Notes under the pieces: generated by a model
What the model was told of the DNA's origin: nothing
What the model saw: the letters and a program-made list of their open reading frames with translations, nothing else
Databases searched by the model: none
In this document: one piece after another, positions 1-8,974 of the stretch
How the letters are laid out: each line of letters starts with the position of its first letter
How positions within the stretch are numbered: the first letter of the stretch is position 1
Origin: Robiginitalea sp.
Lineage (GTDB): Bacteria; Bacteroidota; Bacteroidia; Flavobacteriales; Flavobacteriaceae
DNA length: 64,000 bases
Assembly: GCA_024642005.1 (NCBI GenBank)
Contig: JAHECA010000001.1
Coordinates: 1 to 64,000 of the forward strand
Reading direction: 5' to 3'
Position numbers and translations under genes: made by a program

Positions 1-2112
1 GTGTCCCCCAATGAACTGGCCAGCCAGGAGGTTTCGGTCCACCGAAAGATGATGATGCTCAGGAATGGGGTCCTAATCGCTTTGACCTTTCTCCTTGGGT
101 TGTCCATTTTCATGACTGTAAGGGCAAGGAAGCAGACCAGAATCGCCATCGAAGAACGGGATAAGGCCCAGGCGAATTATTTGATCTCGGAAGCTAATAG
201 AGAGGTTGAGAAGGATCCTACCATTGCCGTAAGGCTTGCCGAGGCAGCAATCCGCTACCAACCTAAAGATCCTGAGATACTACTTGATGCATCGACTATT
301 TATAATGAGAATAATTTTTATGATATAATTGTTGATGATTCATTGATAAATACTGTGGCTTTTTCGAGGGAAGGAAACTTCGTGCTCACAGGAACAGCAG
401 ATTCTCTTGTTCGTCTATGGGATTCTCAAGGCAAAAAGATACAAGAATTTGAAGGCCATAAAGACGGAATTAATTCAATTTCCTTTTCACCGAATGACCA
501 ACAAATACTAACCGGATCTAGCGATAACACTGCACGATTATGGGATCTGAAAGGCAACACGATCACAGAATATGTTGGCCATACGGGCCGAGTAACTTCG
601 GTTGTATTTTCACCAGATGGGCAGCAAGTATTGACCGGATCAAGTGACAATATGGCTAGAACATGGGACTTGCATGGCAATATGATCCAAGAATTTAGTG
701 GTCATACAGGTGGTATCTACTCTGTTAACTTCTCTCCCGATGGGCAATTTGTGCTAACGGGATCTGGGGATAAAACCGCACGCTTGTGGGATCTGAAGGG
801 CAATACGATTCAAGAATTTGAAGGTCACAATCTGATTGTCACATCTGTTGCCTTTTCCCCAGATGGGAAACAGGTATTGACCGGCTCATGGGATAGTACT
901 GCACGCTTATGGGATTTGCAAGGCAATACCATTCAAGAATTGAAGGGTCATTCTGAAATAATCACGTGTATCGCTTTTTCCCCGGATGGCACACAGATAT
1001 TGACAGGCTCATTGGACACCACAGCCCGTTTATGGGATTTGCAGGGTAATACGATTCAAGAATTTAAATGCAGCACCGAAAAGGTCAATAGTGTCACATT
1101 TACAAATGACGGAAAGCAAGTCATGACCGGCTCATGGGATGCTGTTCGTTTATGGGATTTGAAAAGCAAACTTTTTCTGGTAGTTCGGAGCTATACAGAA
1201 ACTTTCAATTCCGTAGCCTTTTCCCCGGATGGATCGCGCTTATTAACGGGATCTGGGGATAAAATTGCCCGTTTGTGGGATCTGAAGGGCAATGCGACTC
1301 AAGAATATATTGGCCATACAGACCATGTAAACGCCGTTTGTTTTTCACAGGACGGGAATTATGTCCTTACAGGTTCAAGAGATAGAACTGCCCGGCTATG
1401 GGGCCTCCGGGGTACTATGATTCAAGAATTTAATGGCCACAAAGGTGGGATATTGTCTGTTGACTTTTCCCCAAATGGTAAGCAGGTTTTTACTGGTTCA
1501 AGCGATAAAACAGGCCGATTATGGGACCTGCAGGGCAATACGATCCAAGAATATAAGGGCCATGGGGACATGATTTACTCTGTTGCCTTTTCTCCCGACG
1601 GGAACTCTGTCTTGACCGGATCGGGGGACACTACCGCTCGTTTATGGGATCTGCAAGGCAATATGATTCAAGAATTCAAGGGCCATACTAATATGATCAA
1701 ATCCGTTGCTTTTTCCCCCGATGGAAATTATGTATTGACCGGATCATTGGATGCTTCAGTCCGCTTATGGGATCTGCAGGGCAATACGATTCAAGAATTC
1801 AAGGATCTTACGTTTGAACTAACTTCTATGGTTACTTCTGTTGCCTTTTCGCCGGATGGGAAGCATATTTTGAGTGGTGCTTTTGAAGATGCAAGATTAT
1901 GGGATCTTAAGGGCAATACCATTCAAATGCTTAAAGGCCATACACGCACTATCAATTCAGTTGCCTTTTCACCGGATGGGCAACAAGTGTTGACTGGCTC
2001 AAGCGACAACACATTACGTATATGGGATAACCGCGATCTTTTGGAAAGAATTAATGAAAGCAGGATAGAACCATTGTCACATATACAAAAGAAACGCTAT
2101 GGCATCGACTAA
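1..2112 (+). CDS. WD40-repeat propeller protein, 5' end cut by window (likely C-terminal part of a STAND-type NTPase)
   Basis: The visible 703 residues open with a short basic stretch and one transmembrane helix (about residues 22-40), then a helical Ala/Glu/Arg-rich linker (about 40-105), then 14 WD repeats of about 41 residues with the pattern SVAFSPDGxxVLTGSxDxTARLWDLxGNxIQEFxGH. Fourteen repeats would make two seven-bladed propellers. The reading frame is open at base 1 and the TM-linker-WD40 layout is the one seen downstream of nSTAND NTPase modules in bacterial signalling proteins, so the GTG at base 1 is probably internal. Such propellers act as protein-binding or sensing platforms. 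Repeat 7 is one residue short and repeat 12 carries a small insertion; repeats 9 and 13 also depart from consensus. The 3' end overlaps the convergent SLATT gene by four bases. Composition is AT-richer than the bulk of the window. The WD40 assignment is secure; the STAND NTPase upstream is inference. Confidence 0.9.
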   Translation: MSPNELASQEVSVHRKMMMLRNGVLIALTFLLGLSIFMTVRARKQTRIAIEERDKAQANYLISEANREVEKDPTIAVRLAEAAIRYQPKDPEILLDASTIYNENNFYDIIVDDSLINTVAFSREGNFVLTGTADSLVRLWDSQGKKIQEFEGHKDGINSISFSPNDQQILTGSSDNTARLWDLKGNTITEYVGHTGRVTSVVFSPDGQQVLTGSSDNMARTWDLHGNMIQEFSGHTGGIYSVNFSPDGQFVLTGSGDKTARLWDLKGNTIQEFEGHNLIVTSVAFSPDGKQVLTGSWDSTARLWDLQGNTIQELKGHSEIITCIAFSPDGTQILTGSLDTTARLWDLQGNTIQEFKCSTEKVNSVTFTNDGKQVMTGSWDAVRLWDLKSKLFLVVRSYTETFNSVAFSPDGSRLLTGSGDKIARLWDLKGNATQEYIGHTDHVNAVCFSQDGNYVLTGSRDRTARLWGLRGTMIQEFNGHKGGILSVDFSPNGKQVFTGSSDKTGRLWDLQGNTIQEYKGHGDMIYSVAFSPDGNSVLTGSGDTTARLWDLQGNMIQEFKGHTNMIKSVAFSPDGNYVLTGSLDASVRLWDLQGNTIQEFKDLTFELTSMVTSVAFSPDGKHILSGAFEDARLWDLKGNTIQMLKGHTRTINSVAFSPDGQQVLTGSSDNTLRIWDNRDLLERINESRIEPLSHIQKKRYGID

Positions 2113-2558
2113 GCCCCTGGATCTTCTGCCCCTTTGTCCAGGCCAATATACCCCCCCCAATCGCCATGCTCAGCGTGGATGATTGCCTCCACCCGGCTCA
2201 CCAACACATGGTAGGCATCCGAACGATTATAGGGCGCCGTCTTGGAGGACCAGAGGTATTTTTCGCTTTTCAGTTGTTCCGAGGCCGTGCGGTAATGAAT
2301 CCATTTGTCCTTGAATTTAAGCAGGCCCGAAACGGATGATAAAATGGCTACCAGGGCTCCTAATGCCCCCGTAATAAGATTTGCAGGGAGTGTGATTGCT
2401 GTCAGCTCTTCCATGCCGGATATCAGGGGAATCAGTACCGCCAGAATGATCGTACTGATTTTAAAGCGGTAATAATTCTTTTTGTTGATCACACTTTTAA
2501 GGCTATACCATTGTTGCTGTTCATCCAGTCGTTGTCGAATGTAATCTGTAGCTTCCAT
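2109..2558 (-). CDS. SLATT-domain / DUF4231 small membrane protein
   Basis: A 149-residue protein with a basic amphipathic N-terminus containing RQRLDEQQQWY, two hydrophobic helices (about residues 33-50 and 56-80) and a C-terminal helical segment with FKDKWIHYRTASEQLKSEK. This arrangement matches the DUF4231/SLATT family. SLATT proteins were predicted from comparative genomics to be pore-forming effectors in bacterial conflict systems, coupled to nucleotide-signalling or STAND modules. The neighbouring WD40 gene is convergent and overlaps by four bases, so the two are not co-transcribed, but they share the same AT-rich island. The 297 bases upstream (2559-2855) separate it from the divergent operon starting at 2856, are AT-rich and show no clear box or hairpin. 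Family call moderately sure; effector role is inference. Confidence 0.7.
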   Translation of the reverse strand: MEATDYIRQRLDEQQQWYSLKSVINKKNYYRFKISTIILAVLIPLISGMEELTAITLPANLITGALGALVAILSSVSGLLKFKDKWIHYRTASEQLKSEKYLWSSKTAPYNRSDAYHVLVSRVEAIIHAEHGDWGGYIGLDKGAEDPGA

Positions 2559-2855: not shown

Positions 2856-4247
2856 ATGACCCATCAACATCCTTTTATCACCATGTCTGAGATACAAGAA
2901 GACAAGCTGGTTCTTTTAAGATCCAGGCTGGAGGCCATTCGGAAGGATCTTTTGGAGAAACAGCTGTCTAATGTACCTACCGTATTTGACAAAGTCAATA
3001 CGCTGCATTATGGGAGGTGGGTAATCCTGAGCCGCGATTCGTTCCGGGATGAACCCCGGGAACCCGTCGGGCTCCGGTTGGTTTTATCGACGAATTACGA
3101 CGGAATTGGCGAGGATCATGTAGAACATCACCTGACAGATCTGGTCACTCATCTCACCCCCTACATAGACCAGTTGTATGAATGTTGTGTTGGCTACCCG
3201 GAAGAAGGGGCGCGAACAGAGGAAAGCCGAAAAAACTTTCTCAGAAAAGGCATAACCAAAACATCCGCCTTTTTTAACGGCGCCCCCGGCCGCTCTGTTG
3301 TCCAAATACGCCAGGAGGATGCCCTTCATCAGCATATTTGGAAATTCGTCAATAGCAGGACCTGGGATGAAGGCACCCCAGCCACTGCGATTCACAGGGC
3401 TATTCAGCAGGAAATCGATGCGAATCCCGAGTTTGCCTGGAGTAGGGAAAAAGCCGGGGTACAGGGTATTAAATGGGGGTCGTTCCTGAGCTGGGGCTTT
3501 TTGTTGGTTTTATTGTTTTTAACGGGATTGGCCGTTTTTTGGATCCTTTTCATTTTCCTCTTCTATGAACTCTGGGATAAGAAACAGACGCTGACGCAGA
3601 GCGACCTGGACGATAAAAAGATTGATAAACTGAAATTAGTTGAAGACTTCTTTCCGCAAAACCAGTTTACCCAGGTGGCCGTTTTAAAACCCGGATTGGC
3701 CCGCAAGTTCAACTTCTGGATTTGGATGCTGCGTACCCGGGTGCTGGCAAATGATGTCTTTGTCAAAGGCAAACTGCTCAATATACCGACCATACATTTC
3801 GCCCGATGGGTACAGTTTGACAAGGGCAAGCATGTGCTGTTCTTCAGCAATTTTGATGGCAACTGGGAGCAATATCTCGGCGATTTTATCGATCAGTCGG
3901 GATGGGGGTTGTCCGCTATTTTCAGCAATACGGTGAATTTTCCAAAAACCCACTTCATGGGGCTACTGGGAGTGATCCCTGTAATTTTGGGCAAGATTCC
4001 CGGCATGCGCAAAATTCCGCCAATGCCCGTGACCTTTCCCGGTACTAAATTTGTTTTGACCGGCGGCGCCTATGATCAGGAACATTTTCTGGCCTGGAGC
4101 CGAAGTACACAGATCCCAACCCAGGTCTGGTACTGCCCGTACCGCCATCTTTCGATTAAGAATGTGAATAACAATACTATGATTCACAACGAGTTACATG
4201 AGCCATTAACTGAAGAGCAAGCACAAATTTTCCTGAAAAGAATTTAA
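2856..4247 (+). CDS. Membrane protein with an internally duplicated unknown domain, partner of the DyP peroxidase
   Basis: I do not recognise a named family. The 463-residue protein contains two related halves: NTLHYGRWVIL followed by LRLVLSTNYDG (about residues 48-85), and IPTIHFARWVQF followed by HVLFFSNFDG (about 309-335). Each half continues into a D/E-rich helix (EDHVEHHLTDLV; WEQYLGDFID). Between them lies a strong hydrophobic hairpin (about residues 207-241), so the two halves may sit on the same face of a membrane. The beta-alpha pattern suggests a ferredoxin-like or dimeric alpha/beta-barrel fold, the fold class that also contains DyP peroxidases, but this is inference. The peroxidase gene follows after 10 bases, so the two are surely one operon. 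An alternative start lies at 2883 (MSEIQEDK). Possible roles are substrate delivery or membrane docking for the peroxidase. Confidence 0.85.
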   Translation: MTHQHPFITMSEIQEDKLVLLRSRLEAIRKDLLEKQLSNVPTVFDKVNTLHYGRWVILSRDSFRDEPREPVGLRLVLSTNYDGIGEDHVEHHLTDLVTHLTPYIDQLYECCVGYPEEGARTEESRKNFLRKGITKTSAFFNGAPGRSVVQIRQEDALHQHIWKFVNSRTWDEGTPATAIHRAIQQEIDANPEFAWSREKAGVQGIKWGSFLSWGFLLVLLFLTGLAVFWILFIFLFYELWDKKQTLTQSDLDDKKIDKLKLVEDFFPQNQFTQVAVLKPGLARKFNFWIWMLRTRVLANDVFVKGKLLNIPTIHFARWVQFDKGKHVLFFSNFDGNWEQYLGDFIDQSGWGLSAIFSNTVNFPKTHFMGLLGVIPVILGKIPGMRKIPPMPVTFPGTKFVLTGGAYDQEHFLAWSRSTQIPTQVWYCPYRHLSIKNVNNNTMIHNELHEPLTEEQAQIFLKRI

Positions 4248-4257
4248 AGATTTCAAT

Positions 4258-5685
4258 ATGACAGCATTAGAACTTTCGGAAATTCAGTCGTACCTGTTCA
4301 ATGAGTATAAGGAGATGGGTTTTTCCAAATACTACTTGATGCAAATTCAAAATACGGCAGCCGCTAAAAATTTTCTGGCAGAAGTGGCCGGGGAGGTCAC
4401 CCATGCCAATGCAGCTTTGAAAGACAGCTGTCTCAATATTGGTTTTACCAGGGATGGCTTGAAAGAATTGGGCTATCATGAAGAGAATATGCATTCCTTT
4501 TCCCGGGAGTTCAGGGAGGGCATGGTAACAGACCATCGGCAGCGTTTACTCGGCGATTTTGAAGGTAGTGATCCGAAGCTGTGGAAGTGGGGCGGACCCG
4601 AAAACGAAAGGATTGATCTCATACTGATAGTCTTCGGCAAGGATGAAGACGCTGCAGAAGCATATTACCGCACGCTCAGGCCGAAAATGGAAACGGCTTT
4701 GTCTGAAGTCAAAACTTTGGATGGGAAATCCCTGCCTAACGATCGCGAGCATTTTGGATTCAGGGACGGCATTTCGCAACCCGTGATAAAAGGCAGTGGC
4801 TCCAAGGCATCCGGCAACAACAACGATATCAATCCCGGTGAGTTTGTACTGGGGTATAAGAACGAATACAACGTATATCCCGATACGGCTTTACTGCGCG
4901 TAAAACAAGGCCAAAGCGATATGCTGGCCGATAATTCCGAAGGTCTTGCCGATAAAAAGACCAAAATAAAATTCAAGGACTTCGGCCACAATGGCACCTA
5001 TTTCGTATTGCGGCAGCTGGAACAGGACGTAGATGGGTTTTGGACTTTTTTGAAAAATCAATCCAAGGAAACCGAGGAGGAAAAACGCAATGGGGAAGCG
5101 ACGTACCTCGCTGCAAAAATGATGGGCCGATGGCCCGGAGGGGCACCTTTGGTGAAGTACGACCAGGACCCCGGCATCGATATGGAGGACAATAATTTCA
5201 ATTATACAAAAGAGGATACCTCCGGAAACAAATGTCCCTTTGGGGCACATATTCGGCGTATGAACCCACGGGATGTCTTTGAAGAATCGCCCCCAAACAT
5301 CTCACTGATGCTCACCAGGCGTCACCGCATCATGCGGCGGATTCGGTCGTATGGTGAAGATTTCATCGGCTCTGCCGAAAATCACAAACCCACTGGCAAG
5401 GTGGGCCTGTTGTTTGGATGCTTCAACGCCAATATCTCCAAACAATTTGAATTCATCCAGTACACATGGGCGAATTCTCCCAAGTTCAAAAGGCTTTACG
5501 CCGACCCCGATCCGTTTATCGGGGTGCGTGAAGACCCCAAACATACACTGGAACAGAATTTCACAATTCCGACAGAGACATGCAACCGTGTTATAACGGA
5601 TATGCAACGATTCGTGCACGTACGGGGCGGTGCTTATTTCTTTTTCCCATCCGTTACTTCTATTAAATTCCTGTCTACGCTATAG
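4258..5685 (+). CDS. DyP-type haem peroxidase
   Basis: A 475-residue dye-decolorizing-type peroxidase. The distal GxxDG signature appears as FGFRDGISQPV (about residues 166-176) and carries the catalytic Asp. The proximal haem ligand region reads CPFGAHIRRMNPR, with the ligand His at about residue 331 and the conserved Arg nearby. The C-terminal part has GLLFGCFNANISKQFEFIQ, characteristic of the longer DyP classes. No signal peptide is visible, so it should be cytosolic or held at the membrane by the upstream gene product. Family members use hydrogen peroxide to oxidise bulky substrates. It is the second gene of a two-gene operon with the duplicated-domain membrane protein (10-base gap). It is convergent with the patatin/NDT-like operon, with 66 bases between the gene ends. 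Function in this setting is unknown; a lipid-derived substrate is a guess based on the neighbouring phospholipase. Confidence 0.92.
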   Translation: MTALELSEIQSYLFNEYKEMGFSKYYLMQIQNTAAAKNFLAEVAGEVTHANAALKDSCLNIGFTRDGLKELGYHEENMHSFSREFREGMVTDHRQRLLGDFEGSDPKLWKWGGPENERIDLILIVFGKDEDAAEAYYRTLRPKMETALSEVKTLDGKSLPNDREHFGFRDGISQPVIKGSGSKASGNNNDINPGEFVLGYKNEYNVYPDTALLRVKQGQSDMLADNSEGLADKKTKIKFKDFGHNGTYFVLRQLEQDVDGFWTFLKNQSKETEEEKRNGEATYLAAKMMGRWPGGAPLVKYDQDPGIDMEDNNFNYTKEDTSGNKCPFGAHIRRMNPRDVFEESPPNISLMLTRRHRIMRRIRSYGEDFIGSAENHKPTGKVGLLFGCFNANISKQFEFIQYTWANSPKFKRLYADPDPFIGVREDPKHTLEQNFTIPTETCNRVITDMQRFVHVRGGAYFFFPSVTSIKFLSTL

Positions 5686-5751
5686 GAACAGGGGTGGGTA
5701 AATTGCAGGAAAGGGGCAGCAAGCTCCCGTCCAGGTAGCGGAAGGGCCCAA

Positions 5752-7815
5752 TCAATTCGCCTTCAAATCCCGGGGATTGATAATGATGCTCTTCGCCCCC
5801 AATTTTTCAATTTCCTCGATCATATGATCGGTGCCGCCCGGCCCATCTCCCGCCTTGCCGTCCCACAGGGCCAGGAGGGAGATGTTCCTGCCCCCGGCCG
5901 CCATGGCCGTATACATGGTCCACAGATTATTCCGTTGCCAAAACGTATAACTTTTATCCTGAGTCCCCAGCCATTTTGGCATTTCCTCGGTTTCCGACAA
6001 GATGTGAATATCAACCTCAGGATCATTATAGAGCGCATTGAACCGGCCTATCCAATCATTGCCCCCCCGACTTACCGATTTGGCAATAAATTCCTGTTGG
6101 GGCAGCGCCAGAAGTATTTTTGAAGGAATGCCCAATTCTTTGCACACTTCATGAAAAATGATATCCCCGCCACAAGCCCCTCCTGCGACACCCAGGAAGT
6201 TGATCGGTTTCTCGTCCGAAGCTCTCTTCTGTTCCTCCGAAACGATGAACTGAACCTTACTTCTGATCTCTTTCTTCGCAGCATCAGCCAGTTCATTCGG
6301 GAATCGGGGTTCATTCCGCCCTGCTTCATCAATCATATGGCCCGAAAAAAGAATCACCTGCTGCTTGTCAGGCCTTGTATCAAATTCCTTTTCCTGGTAC
6401 TGATTGAACACGGCCGCCACATTATCTGGCATGATGCCTAATTTCTCATATATCCGGACCTGCCTCAGGGAAGAGTAGATGTAAAACTCCTTGTTGTCTT
6501 GTTTCGCTATTTCGATCGCATCCTGGTACCTGCGAACGACACGATCAGGGTTGCGGCTTGTCAACAGGGTGAATTCAGCATAGGTGAGTTCGTGCCAAAG
6601 ATCTTTTTTTCCGAGTAGCTTCAGCTTACTCTGGTTGGTCTCCAGGGTTTTGCGCATAACCACCGTTAAAACCTCAAATTCCTTTTTGTAGCCCTCCAAC
6701 GCCTGGGAGGCTTCGTCATCCTCATCGTAATTATTAGTCCAGGAATCCGGTTCGCGCTCAGCCAAATCCACGATTATTTTTAGCAACCCCAGCGCATTGA
6801 TTCCGGCATAGCATTCATTCAGGTCTTCTTCATAGCCCGTTAAATAGCTATTGAACGCATTGGTTAAAAACACCGAGCTTATGGCTTTTTTGGCTACTTC
6901 CTCCTTTGGCTCATCAATCCAGCTGGCAATCCACCGGCCCTTCTCGTTCCTTCCTTTCAGGGCGCAGGCCTCGGCTATATCCTTCGAATTCAGCGTTTCC
7001 TTCTGGTTGATCAAAAATTCAATGGCATTATCCGATTTGGCATAGATTTCCTTGGCCAGGGTCGGATTTCTCTTCATTTCAGACTCGGCCAATCGTTGGT
7101 AAATCGTCGCCAGCCGGCTGTACGCCTGTATGTCTCCTCGTTTCAACGTCAGCAGCGTATTCCATGTTTCCACCCCTTGACTTTCAAGGCCTTTTTGAAA
7201 CTGTGTTTCACCAATCAGGCGCAAGGCCGGCAAGGACCAGGAAAAATTAAAGCGACGGATCTCGAAAGACAGAAGATTCAACAGCCCCCCATCGCCATTC
7301 CTGGCTTTCTCCAGATCCCCCACAAAGGTTGCCGGAATGGCCAGGAAAGTTTCCGGTTCCTGTTTAATCAGCCCGGGCAGCATGCGAAAAACGGGGCTAT
7401 CCGGTTTTTCATTTGCCAGCGTTTCTTCAATGGATTTGCGCAAACTTTCTATTCCCGATTCCAAATCTGCCAGATCATAGGCTATGTACCGGTCCGTTTT
7501 GAGATCAAACGGCACCTCGTCCTTTCGGCAACGAATCAAAATGGTATGCGCATCGCGCAAGGCATGCCTAATGCCCAGTTCATAGAATACGTTCGCATTG
7601 TGTATGGAAATGTCAGCAATGACAAGGTCACTGGTCAAAAGCAACTCAAACATATCTTGCCTGATATTGCCGGCCTCGAAGATGCTTTCAGTTGTATTTC
7701 CCGCGATACCGGCCTTGGCCAGCGCAGGGGAAATCAGTTTGGCGTGAACACCATCAAAGTCGATATCGTCCTTTACGCCAAAGGGTCGAACGATAAAAGC
7801 TGTTGGTTTTGCCAT
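5752..7815 (-). CDS. NDT/TIR-like domain + TPR-like TRAFs-binding (DUF4071) + C-terminal Rossmann-like protein
   Basis: A 687-residue multidomain protein. Residues 1 to about 135 form a Rossmann-like domain beginning KPTAFIVRPFG and containing MFELLLTSDLVIADIS and NVFYELGIRHALR; this is the nucleoside 2-deoxyribosyltransferase/TIR-like pattern, with the Glu of the YELG motif in place. Residues about 150-460 are helical and TPR-like and match the TRAFs-binding (DUF4071) region found in bacterial proteins of this type and in eukaryotic ASK-type MAP3 kinases. Residues about 480-687 form another alpha/beta unit with LFSGHMIDEAGR, FLGVAGGACGGDI and LLALPQQEFIAKSV, which looks like a nucleotide-binding SLOG-like fold. 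The gene lies four bases downstream of the patatin gene, so the two should be co-translated. The likely role is a regulator or nucleotide-processing sensor for the phospholipase. Domain limits are approximate and the C-terminal fold is inference. Confidence 0.8.
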   Translation of the reverse strand: MAKPTAFIVRPFGVKDDIDFDGVHAKLISPALAKAGIAGNTTESIFEAGNIRQDMFELLLTSDLVIADISIHNANVFYELGIRHALRDAHTILIRCRKDEVPFDLKTDRYIAYDLADLESGIESLRKSIEETLANEKPDSPVFRMLPGLIKQEPETFLAIPATFVGDLEKARNGDGGLLNLLSFEIRRFNFSWSLPALRLIGETQFQKGLESQGVETWNTLLTLKRGDIQAYSRLATIYQRLAESEMKRNPTLAKEIYAKSDNAIEFLINQKETLNSKDIAEACALKGRNEKGRWIASWIDEPKEEVAKKAISSVFLTNAFNSYLTGYEEDLNECYAGINALGLLKIIVDLAEREPDSWTNNYDEDDEASQALEGYKKEFEVLTVVMRKTLETNQSKLKLLGKKDLWHELTYAEFTLLTSRNPDRVVRRYQDAIEIAKQDNKEFYIYSSLRQVRIYEKLGIMPDNVAAVFNQYQEKEFDTRPDKQQVILFSGHMIDEAGRNEPRFPNELADAAKKEIRSKVQFIVSEEQKRASDEKPINFLGVAGGACGGDIIFHEVCKELGIPSKILLALPQQEFIAKSVSRGGNDWIGRFNALYNDPEVDIHILSETEEMPKWLGTQDKSYTFWQRNNLWTMYTAMAAGGRNISLLALWDGKAGDGPGGTDHMIEEIEKLGAKSIIINPRDLKAN

Positions 7816-7819
7816 TTTT

Positions 7820-8974
7820 TTACACGAAGGAACCGAAATGATCCATACTCACTTGTTGATTTGCCGCTGCCGTTCCAATGTCCAGTAAATCCTGAATATT
7901 TGCAGGCTCATCCATTTCCCGGATCTTTTTGGGGTCCAAATGACCAAATCCCAAATCCTTCAACCCTTTATCACTCAAATCGGCGTTATACCTGACGTAA
8001 AGGAAATCCTTTTCCCTTTTTGCATCATAGACCATGTCATGGACTTCCCTGTCGATCTGATCTCCGTACATACAACGGCCAACCGCACGGCAATTGATAT
8101 CCTGGTCGACCTGCATGGCATACATCAGGTTATTCGGGATATTCTTAATGATACTTCCCAGGTTGCGATAGGCACCTGTTGTCGTCGCTGCTCCCGTACC
8201 CACGGAAACCACCAACAGGTTCTTTTCTCCTGTCTGCCAGTTCAGATTATAAGCAGGCAACGTAGACATTTTATAGAGCAAAAAGGCCGGGTTATTGTAG
8301 GGGGTCACCCCCCCGTCGACAAACACAAAAGTTTTGGACGGATCATTTTTATCCCATTGGATCGTTTCGGACGCAAAATAACTGGGTGCTGCCGTACTGG
8401 CCCTGACCAGTTGAAAAAGTCTTATTTTTTGATTGTTGTCTGCTCTGCTCTTGTCGTTGTATTTGGCAAAAGGATTGTTGCTGATAGGCCAGGGAGAATC
8501 TGTGCTCCGGTTCATGGTCACGACCGTCAACAGCGATTTAAAGGTGCCATTTGCAATATCCATATTGGTCTCGGCCCCGTACACCTCCTTGAGCTTTGTG
8601 GTTAGGGGGCCCGACTTGAACTTAAAACCTGAAAAAAGCCAGCCCAAAATGGTATACCGGGCTTTGGCAAACATGGCCTTCCCGAATTTTTTGTAAAAAT
8701 CCATCAACTCATCAGCAGACATCCCGATGGCAAGCCCGGCAGCAATTATAGCTCCCGTACTGGTGCCCCCAAAATGGTCAAAATAGTCACATAACCTGAA
8801 ATCGTCGCCCCGGTTCAATTTTTGTTTGAGATCCTTTTCCAGTTTGGATAAAATCCCGAGCGTGAGCACTCCGCGTATACCTCCCCCATCCAGGGCCAGT
8901 ATTTTACGGGGTTGCTGGGATTCATATCGGGGGGCGAGATCGCCCCAGGGTGATGATTGGTCTTGATCGGTCAT
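7820..8974 (-). CDS. Patatin-like phospholipase (CapV-like effector type)
   Basis: A 384-residue patatin family lipid acyl hydrolase. The oxyanion-hole motif is DGGGIRG (residues 29-35), the nucleophile elbow is GTSTG (70-74, Ser72), and the catalytic Asp lies in FVDGGVTPYNNP (Asp about residue 219). These three elements form the Ser-Asp dyad of patatins. GTSTG rather than GxSxG with variable flanks is also the form used by CapV-type effectors that degrade membranes in CBASS antiphage systems, although no CD-NTase is present here. No signal peptide is seen, so it acts in the cytosol. It is the first gene of an operon with the NDT-like/TRAFs-binding gene four bases downstream. It may be held in check or activated by that partner. 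Bacterial patatins also serve in lipid turnover, so a defence role is not proven. Confidence 0.92.
   Translation of the reverse strand: MTDQDQSSPWGDLAPRYESQQPRKILALDGGGIRGVLTLGILSKLEKDLKQKLNRGDDFRLCDYFDHFGGTSTGAIIAAGLAIGMSADELMDFYKKFGKAMFAKARYTILGWLFSGFKFKSGPLTTKLKEVYGAETNMDIANGTFKSLLTVVTMNRSTDSPWPISNNPFAKYNDKSRADNNQKIRLFQLVRASTAAPSYFASETIQWDKNDPSKTFVFVDGGVTPYNNPAFLLYKMSTLPAYNLNWQTGEKNLLVVSVGTGAATTTGAYRNLGSIIKNIPNNLMYAMQVDQDINCRAVGRCMYGDQIDREVHDMVYDAKREKDFLYVRYNADLSDKGLKDLGFGHLDPKKIREMDEPANIQDLLDIGTAAANQQVSMDHFGSFV

Follow-up and report, generated by a model that had tools for sequence, protein, structure and literature searches.

DyP-type peroxidases are widely studied for their dye and lignin chemistry, and their natural substrates are mostly unclear. 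Proteins with the ABM fold include WhiE-ORFI (9lmn), Abx(+)O (9ltx), SnoaB, and ActVA-Orf6; one study proposes that another, ForS, is a helper without catalysis in polyketide synthesis (PMC6689052). Lipid hydroperoxides are converted both by P450s of plants (CYP74) and by catalase-related enzymes of corals, and the coral catalase-related allene oxide synthase/hydroperoxide lyase, which does the job of the plant CYP74 P450s, is fused to a lipoxygenase (PMC5617202). In the linoleate diol, allene oxide, and epoxyalcohol synthases of fungi, one polypeptide combines a haem dioxygenase with a P450 (PMC13049297). The accessible portion of an octadecanoid review contains no DyP or catalase-related term (PMC11719350). 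We describe a protein with two ferredoxin-like repeats around a hydrophobic segment (hereafter the module, or the tandem module) that is encoded beside a DyP-type peroxidase and, in part of its loci, near P450, catalase-like, or lipid genes. Judging by searches of an open-access library without preprints, neither the family nor its tandem membrane form nor the DyP-centred cassette seems to have been described; the fold class is known.

The window, that is, the whole stretch of DNA that was analysed, comprises 64,000 nucleotides from Robiginitalea sp. The gene lies at 2856..4247 on the forward strand, starts with ATG, and encodes 463 aa. The protein has no Pfam family over cut-off and no NCBIfam match, and returned no match to Pfam ABM at E up to 1; weak partial matches to Pfam Cad, DUF2199, and SDF lay under the cut-offs and were rejected. 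A profile of 61 sequences found no relative among solved structures, and its best match, TRIM25 (E = 0.2), was rejected as chance. The gene for the DyP-type peroxidase (4258..5685, forward strand; Pfam DyP_N and Dyp_perox_C over cut-off) starts 10 bases past the stop codon of the 463-aa ORF. A two-helix membrane protein, SLATT_1 (2109-2558, reverse strand; NCBIfam E = 6e-35), is encoded divergently from the 463-aa gene. At 5752-8974 on the reverse strand, running towards the DyP gene in convergent orientation, a CBASS-type patatin is encoded beside a TPR-S protein (Pfam PF20308); the N-terminus of the TPR-S protein matches a PADLOC TIR effector (E = 4.7e-8) and the patatin (7820-8974) a PADLOC phospholipase effector (E = 8e-44), and the two form a probable two-gene conflict cassette.

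On profile comparison, the two halves of the protein are true repeats, far beyond chance: aligning the N-half with the C-half by hhalign gave a probability of 99.5 and E = 1.9e-22 over 129 columns, with E = 0.13 for a reversed-sequence control, in agreement with the original prediction of two internal repeats. The N-terminal repeat covers residues 1-150 (2856..3305), and the C-terminal repeat residues 268-446 (3657..4193). We counted conservation in 61 sequences, the window protein and 60 homologues. Sixty-one module sequences had been kept from 80 loci (identity under 75% and a length of 330 aa or more, for which L020 and L072 were too short), and 60 of these, with L048 left out, were aligned with the window protein. 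The N-terminal repeat carries HYGRW at residues 51-55 (3006..3020; H51 in 59/61, R54 in 54/61) and NYDG at residues 80-83 (3093..3104; STNYDG at 78-83; D82 in 61/61, G83 in 55/61). The C-terminal repeat carries HFARW at residues 314-318 (3795..3809; H314 in 61/61, R317 in 53/61 with Lys in six more, W318 in 61/61) and SNFDG at residues 331-335 (3846..3860; FSNFDG at 330-335; N332 in 61/61, D334 in 57/61, G335 in 61/61). The prediction had called His-x-x-Arg-Trp and Asp-Gly invariant; His, Arg, and Asp-Gly are indeed widely kept, but Trp is invariant in the C-half only, its N-half position being W in 32/61, F in 18/61, and L in 8/61, so the core common to both halves is H-x-x-R ... D-G. Retrieval of the loci relied on two peptide patterns from the C-half; the first spans FFSNFDGNW, which contains the SNFDG motif, and the second a ..FP stretch, so that conservation within those two patches is partly selected; H-x-x-R-W and the entire N-half lie outside both patterns. 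The C-terminal repeat also holds a lineage-specific insert of 32 residues (369-400; 3960..4055), whose residues are present in at most 7/61 sequences and whose model confidence is low (pLDDT blocks of 60, 58, and 49).

The AlphaFold2 model of the 463-aa protein (pLDDT 91.8, pTM 0.90) has a ferredoxin-like beta-alpha-beta-beta-alpha-beta arrangement in both halves. Helices follow the motifs at 88-99 and 101-108 in the N-half and at 337-356 in the C-half, as had been expected, and the hydrophobic hairpin foreseen between the halves (residues ~207-238; 3474..3569) is modelled as helices 207-222 and 225-238. A hydrophobic stretch at this place occurs in 61/61 sequences (median 35 residues), and a strongly hydrophobic 19-residue window is also found inside the C-half of 22/61 and the N-half of 2/61 sequences. 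The best solved fold match was WhiE-ORFI (VIA-align: Z = 14.3, rmsd 4.2, 223 aligned residues), with residues 1-429 of the model aligned to residues 157-395 of WhiE-ORFI in one pass through both halves; Foldseek gave E = 6e-4 for this pair with a low TM-score (0.35-0.45). Both halves were also aligned in the next VIA-align matches, a polyketide decarboxylase (Z = 10.8) and two putative monooxygenases (Z = 9.8 and 9.5). Folded alone, the C-half (pLDDT 81.9, pTM 0.71, last strand unassigned) had mostly ABM-type neighbours, among those listed SnoaB, ActVA-Orf6, YgiN, and LsrG, with values that by themselves are only suggestive (Z = 5.4-7.5, Foldseek E at least 0.009).

The single alignment through both halves points to a pairing like that of the two ABM units of WhiE-ORFI, and the model suggests that the two repeats together make up a single pseudo-dimeric alpha+beta barrel, with the membrane hairpin inserted between its halves. 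If the barrel needs both of its halves on the same membrane side, the insert would have to enter and leave there, as a hairpin does. The earlier tentative assignment of the halves to an alpha/beta-barrel class thus stands as far as the ferredoxin-like/dimeric alpha+beta-barrel class is concerned, but in the model the halves build one joint barrel rather than two independent domains. The suggested relation to DyP itself was not borne out: hhalign of either half against 79 DyPs of these loci gave no match (E = 0.077-0.52), and the best structural neighbours are of the ABM type. The 50 fold matches listed include no DyP, chlorite dismutase, or EfeB fold, although such folds may lie beyond those rows. 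The protein is like the ABM proteins in its ferredoxin-like halves, both of which align to WhiE-ORFI; unlike them, it has a membrane hairpin between its repeats and a DyP rather than a polyketide synthase as partner, and it has no detectable sequence similarity to them.

A scan of a genome collection of 84,980 species returned at least 596 stretches with at least 320 relatives, of which the best 80 were fetched. Judged by record title, the 80 loci span nine phyla (Bacteroidota, Pseudomonadota, Myxococcota, Planctomycetota, Gemmatimonadota, Chloroflexota, Cyanobacteriota, Armatimonadota, and Acidobacteriota). Of these best 80 relatives, 73 have a DyP gene immediately downstream and 4 carry DyP as a fusion, and in the remaining 3 (L010, L048, and L065) the DNA ends before the DyP position; the profile match to DyP begins -9 to 215 bases past the module ORF (<20 in 51/73). 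DyP is thus the nearly obligate genomic partner of the tandem module, and its proposed role as operon partner is upheld. The DyPs of these loci keep Asp170 in 77/79, His331 in 79/79, and Arg360 in 79/79, which we take to be the GxxDG aspartate, the proximal His, and the distal Arg, respectively. In alphaproteobacteria, P450, module, and DyP occur as single polypeptides (L002, L004, L068, L082, and L085), and L058 encodes a module-DyP fusion. The linkage to DyP, together with the fusions, indicates that the module protein and DyP act together. A DyP-P450 fusion of 957 aa directly follows a separate module gene at L084:7511-10384. The P450-module-DyP and DyP-P450 fusions resemble the fungal dioxygenase-P450 fusions; DyP belongs to a different superfamily from the fungal haem dioxygenases, and we know of no counterpart of the module in the fungal proteins.

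The fetched flanks contain a P450 in 23/80 loci and a catalase-like gene in 26/80, partners like those of the oxylipin haem cascades, with both in 0/80 and neither in 31/80, some flanks being short. Under independence of loci the chance of no co-occurrence is 1.6e-5, the loci not in fact being independent. Exclusivity is not absolute, since a P450 and a catalase-like gene occur together in Methylorubrum L105, along with ferredoxin and reductase genes. Relative to the module, 21/23 P450s lie on the same strand and 24/26 catalase-like genes on the opposite strand, so that the link of the latter is one of proximity, not of an operon. Read by eye, the acid-alcohol pair of the P450 I-helix is complete in 14/26 P450s and partly missing in 12/26. 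P450s of 697-716 aa occur in eight loci (L021, at 4067-6178, L022, L023, L033, L037, L045, L047, and L058); the one scanned, that of L021, has a GST-like N-terminal part just under the Pfam cut-off, and in L008 a GST gene follows the DyP gene. The catalase-like ORFs are mostly of 518-536 aa, with a Polyketide_cyc2/START domain in the one scanned, and their proteins keep His40, Arg307, and Tyr311 in 25/25; the putative distal Asn position, a site with no anchor to a solved catalase and to which we therefore attach no importance, is Ser or Thr in 20/25. The best solved match of two of these proteins is 3e4w; a third has none.

Neighbour clusters were counted in 78 loci (7 of 85 were dropped where the gene picker had lost the module ORF), and ten members from eight clusters were scanned, so that each cluster is named after only one or two of its members. 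A Pfam set for operon neighbours covered 39 of 44 neighbours, five long ones being left out, and 25 of its 43 families were listed. No redox-partner family was among those 25, and neither there nor among the few neighbours scanned did we find a COX-like dioxygenase or lipoxygenase family. The coral system is comparable in that a catalase-like protein partners a lipid-oxidising enzyme (here, of putative lipid oxidation), and differs in that no lipoxygenase is among the neighbour families listed here. START/SnoaL domains, SDR genes, and ABA4-like genes are also found among the neighbours. Six loci (including L033:11168-11602) share a cluster of small proteins, of which the one scanned is ABA4-like and two belong to the operon-neighbour set; a carotenoid-type substrate is thus conceivable. 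A BLAST-linked cluster of large proteins lies near the module in 37/78 loci (e.g., L012:959-6022, reverse strand, and L028:10782-14504, forward strand); both members that were scanned are regulators of the protein kinase-AAA_16 kind, and one of them also has GAF and guanylate cyclase domains.

A patatin gene is found directly upstream of the module on the same strand in 14/80 loci and elsewhere in 2; in 12 of the 14 the two genes are within 20 bases of each other or overlap, and the other two, both from Archangium, were placed by their coordinates. GxSxG and DGG are present in 16/16 patatins found, and the fetched flanks of 64/80 loci contain no patatin of the operon type. Relatives with one repeat (~200 aa) match both the N-half (E = 2.3e-23) and the C-half (E = 3.5e-21), and do not match the DyP profile (E = 0.55). 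A tblastn search with one one-repeat protein returned 51 plasmid records, some of them tandem, from which 13 loci were chosen for inspection. DyP is directly downstream in 13/13 of these, and a catalase-like gene is nearby in 12/13 (weakly matched in L106, E = 1e-4). By the annotation of these 13 selected loci, counted with no background control, oleate hydratase lies beside the one-repeat gene in three (L098, L100, and L101), 3-hydroxyacyl-CoA dehydrogenase in five (L095, L096, L098, L100, and L101), thioesterase in three (L097, L100, and L101), and patatin in one (L097); none of the four is annotated in L006, L099, and L102-L106. The phospholipase, oleate hydratase, and thioesterase genes point to a fatty-acid-type substrate in part of the loci. 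In Bradyrhizobium sp. CB82 two adjacent one-repeat genes precede DyP (L104:3763-5100), which a barrel built from two repeats would lead one to expect, and this pair is a possible picture of the forerunner of the tandem protein.

The module was found in 1/60 related genomes and 1/395 genomes of the phylum, in both cases the window's own genome, and its partner DyP in 7/395 phylum genomes, again with the own genome included; one of these seven, L094, carries an ORF that weakly resembles the module (E at most 1e-3). A viral collection contained no relative of the 463-aa protein; 25 plasmid records matched it, and the 20 listed match the C-half only. The own genome has one DyP_N match and no P450 match, and its catalase-like/START relative, 52% identical to the Mariniradius protein (L028), is on another contig, downstream of a putative cyclase-TPR gene (named by eye). 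The patatin in the window itself (7820-8974), which is encoded on the other strand, has its best scores with CBASS-type lipases and shares only 22-27% identity with the operon patatins. In lacking a P450 and having its catalase-like gene unlinked, the own genome departs from the resemblance to oxylipin cascades, which means that the cassette is split there or its function is partial.

The reading that we prefer, in which we place about even confidence, is that the protein is a membrane-tethered, lipid-presenting accessory subunit with an ABM fold in a DyP-based cassette for fatty-acid oxidation. The two repeats would build one intramolecular ABM-like alpha+beta barrel, and the hairpin would hold it on the membrane with both halves on what is presumably the DyP side. 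Where the operon has one, the patatin phospholipase would release a substrate, putatively of fatty-acid type, which the barrel would take up through its conserved His-x-x-Arg and Asp-Gly residues and, as presenter rather than catalyst, would present to the haem of a docked DyP for oxidation; the P450 or catalase-like haem protein would then, if the steps run in this order, convert the peroxide or the oxidised product. We prefer a membrane-held, lipid-presenting barrel in view of the linkage and fusions to DyP, of the lipid genes in part of the loci, and of the fact that P450 (CYP74) and catalase-related enzymes both convert lipid hydroperoxides elsewhere and seem to replace each other here. 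The substrate channel or helper that had been envisaged for the DyP partner is still the best kind of reading.

The conserved polar residues could equally mean catalysis. The barrel might itself be a cofactor-independent oxygenase, like SnoaB and ActVA-Orf6, adding O2 to an unsaturated lipid through its conserved His, Arg, Trp, Asn, and Asp, with DyP and a P450 or catalase-like protein consuming the hydroperoxide. The presence of those two enzymes among the fold neighbours, the polar residues conserved in both halves, and the lack of a redox-partner family among the 25 of 43 neighbour families listed are consistent with this, as are the 12/26 P450s without the full I-helix pair, since an incomplete pair would suit peroxide-driven P450s. 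However, the same ABM-like fold serves cyclases, lyases, mutarotases, and helpers, the protein has no sequence match to the ABM family, 14/26 P450s keep the pair, and L105 has its ferredoxin and reductase genes, and we consider an oxygenase unlikely. A cassette that clears lipid peroxides, in which the patatin would excise damaged chains and the barrel would hand hydroperoxides to DyP and the catalase-like protein for antioxidant defence or membrane repair rather than synthesis, likewise seems to us unlikely. DyP and catalase-like proteins do handle peroxides, and Deinococcus radiodurans (L095) has a one-repeat gene, a DyP gene, and a catalase-like gene in a row, which, going by gene order, presumably include DR_A0145/0146. 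DR_A0145 (putative peroxidase) and DR_A0146 (catalase-type) are reported to be raised after UVC/vacuum (PMC5731708), which we count for peroxide clearing; against it, DR_A0146 is described as a lesser H2O2 scavenger than KatE1 (PMC7143949). Occurrence in one of 395 phylum genomes would be unusual for a general defence, and P450s, START/SnoaL domains, SDR, and ABA4-like genes fit synthesis better. Between the two, the P450s and START domains favour synthesis and the Deinococcus induction favours clearing.

The position of the pair in the window, among the SLATT gene, a WD40 repeat gene, and the convergent TPR-S and CBASS-type patatin genes, raises the question whether it belongs to an immune or conflict system whose output would be membrane damage or oxidised lipids, and the large-protein cluster near 37/78 loci (kinase-ATPase in the two scanned, one with a cyclase) would fit such a system. 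However, no PADLOC model was hit at E = 0.01 by the protein or by its DyP, none of the eight sampled neighbour clusters is SLATT or TPR-S, and several partners elsewhere are metabolic, which makes this improbable. The original prediction had also entertained a membrane-anchored, haem-binding pseudo-peroxidase related to DyP. DyP-type peroxidases and the studied protein share a broad fold class, and the haem degrader MhuD (Z = 5.6, C-half) and a haem-bound IsdI mutant (Foldseek E = 0.65, whole model) are among the neighbours; yet weak Z values of this kind are common, sequence comparison gives neither profile similarity to DyP nor a solved relative, and the best folds are ABM-type, so that we regard it as very improbable.

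Returning to the lipid-presenting barrel, it is conceivable, although we think it rather unlikely, that these loci encode a bacterial eicosanoid-like pathway that arose independently of lipoxygenases and cyclooxygenases, in which patatin would free a fatty acid, barrel and DyP would oxygenate it, and a P450 or catalase-like protein, interchangeable as in plants and corals, would finish the product, sometimes with P450, barrel, and DyP in one polypeptide. The protein probably assists in a pathway of bacterial lipid oxidation that has been little studied. A partner that nearly always lies beside one group of DyPs, and at some loci has lipid, P450, or catalase-like genes around it, is a concrete and testable pointer to a lipid substrate for these peroxidases. 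If true, the cassette would be another independent case of a haem oxidase coupled to an enzyme that converts hydroperoxides, next to the fungal dioxygenase-P450 and the coral lipoxygenase-catalase fusions.
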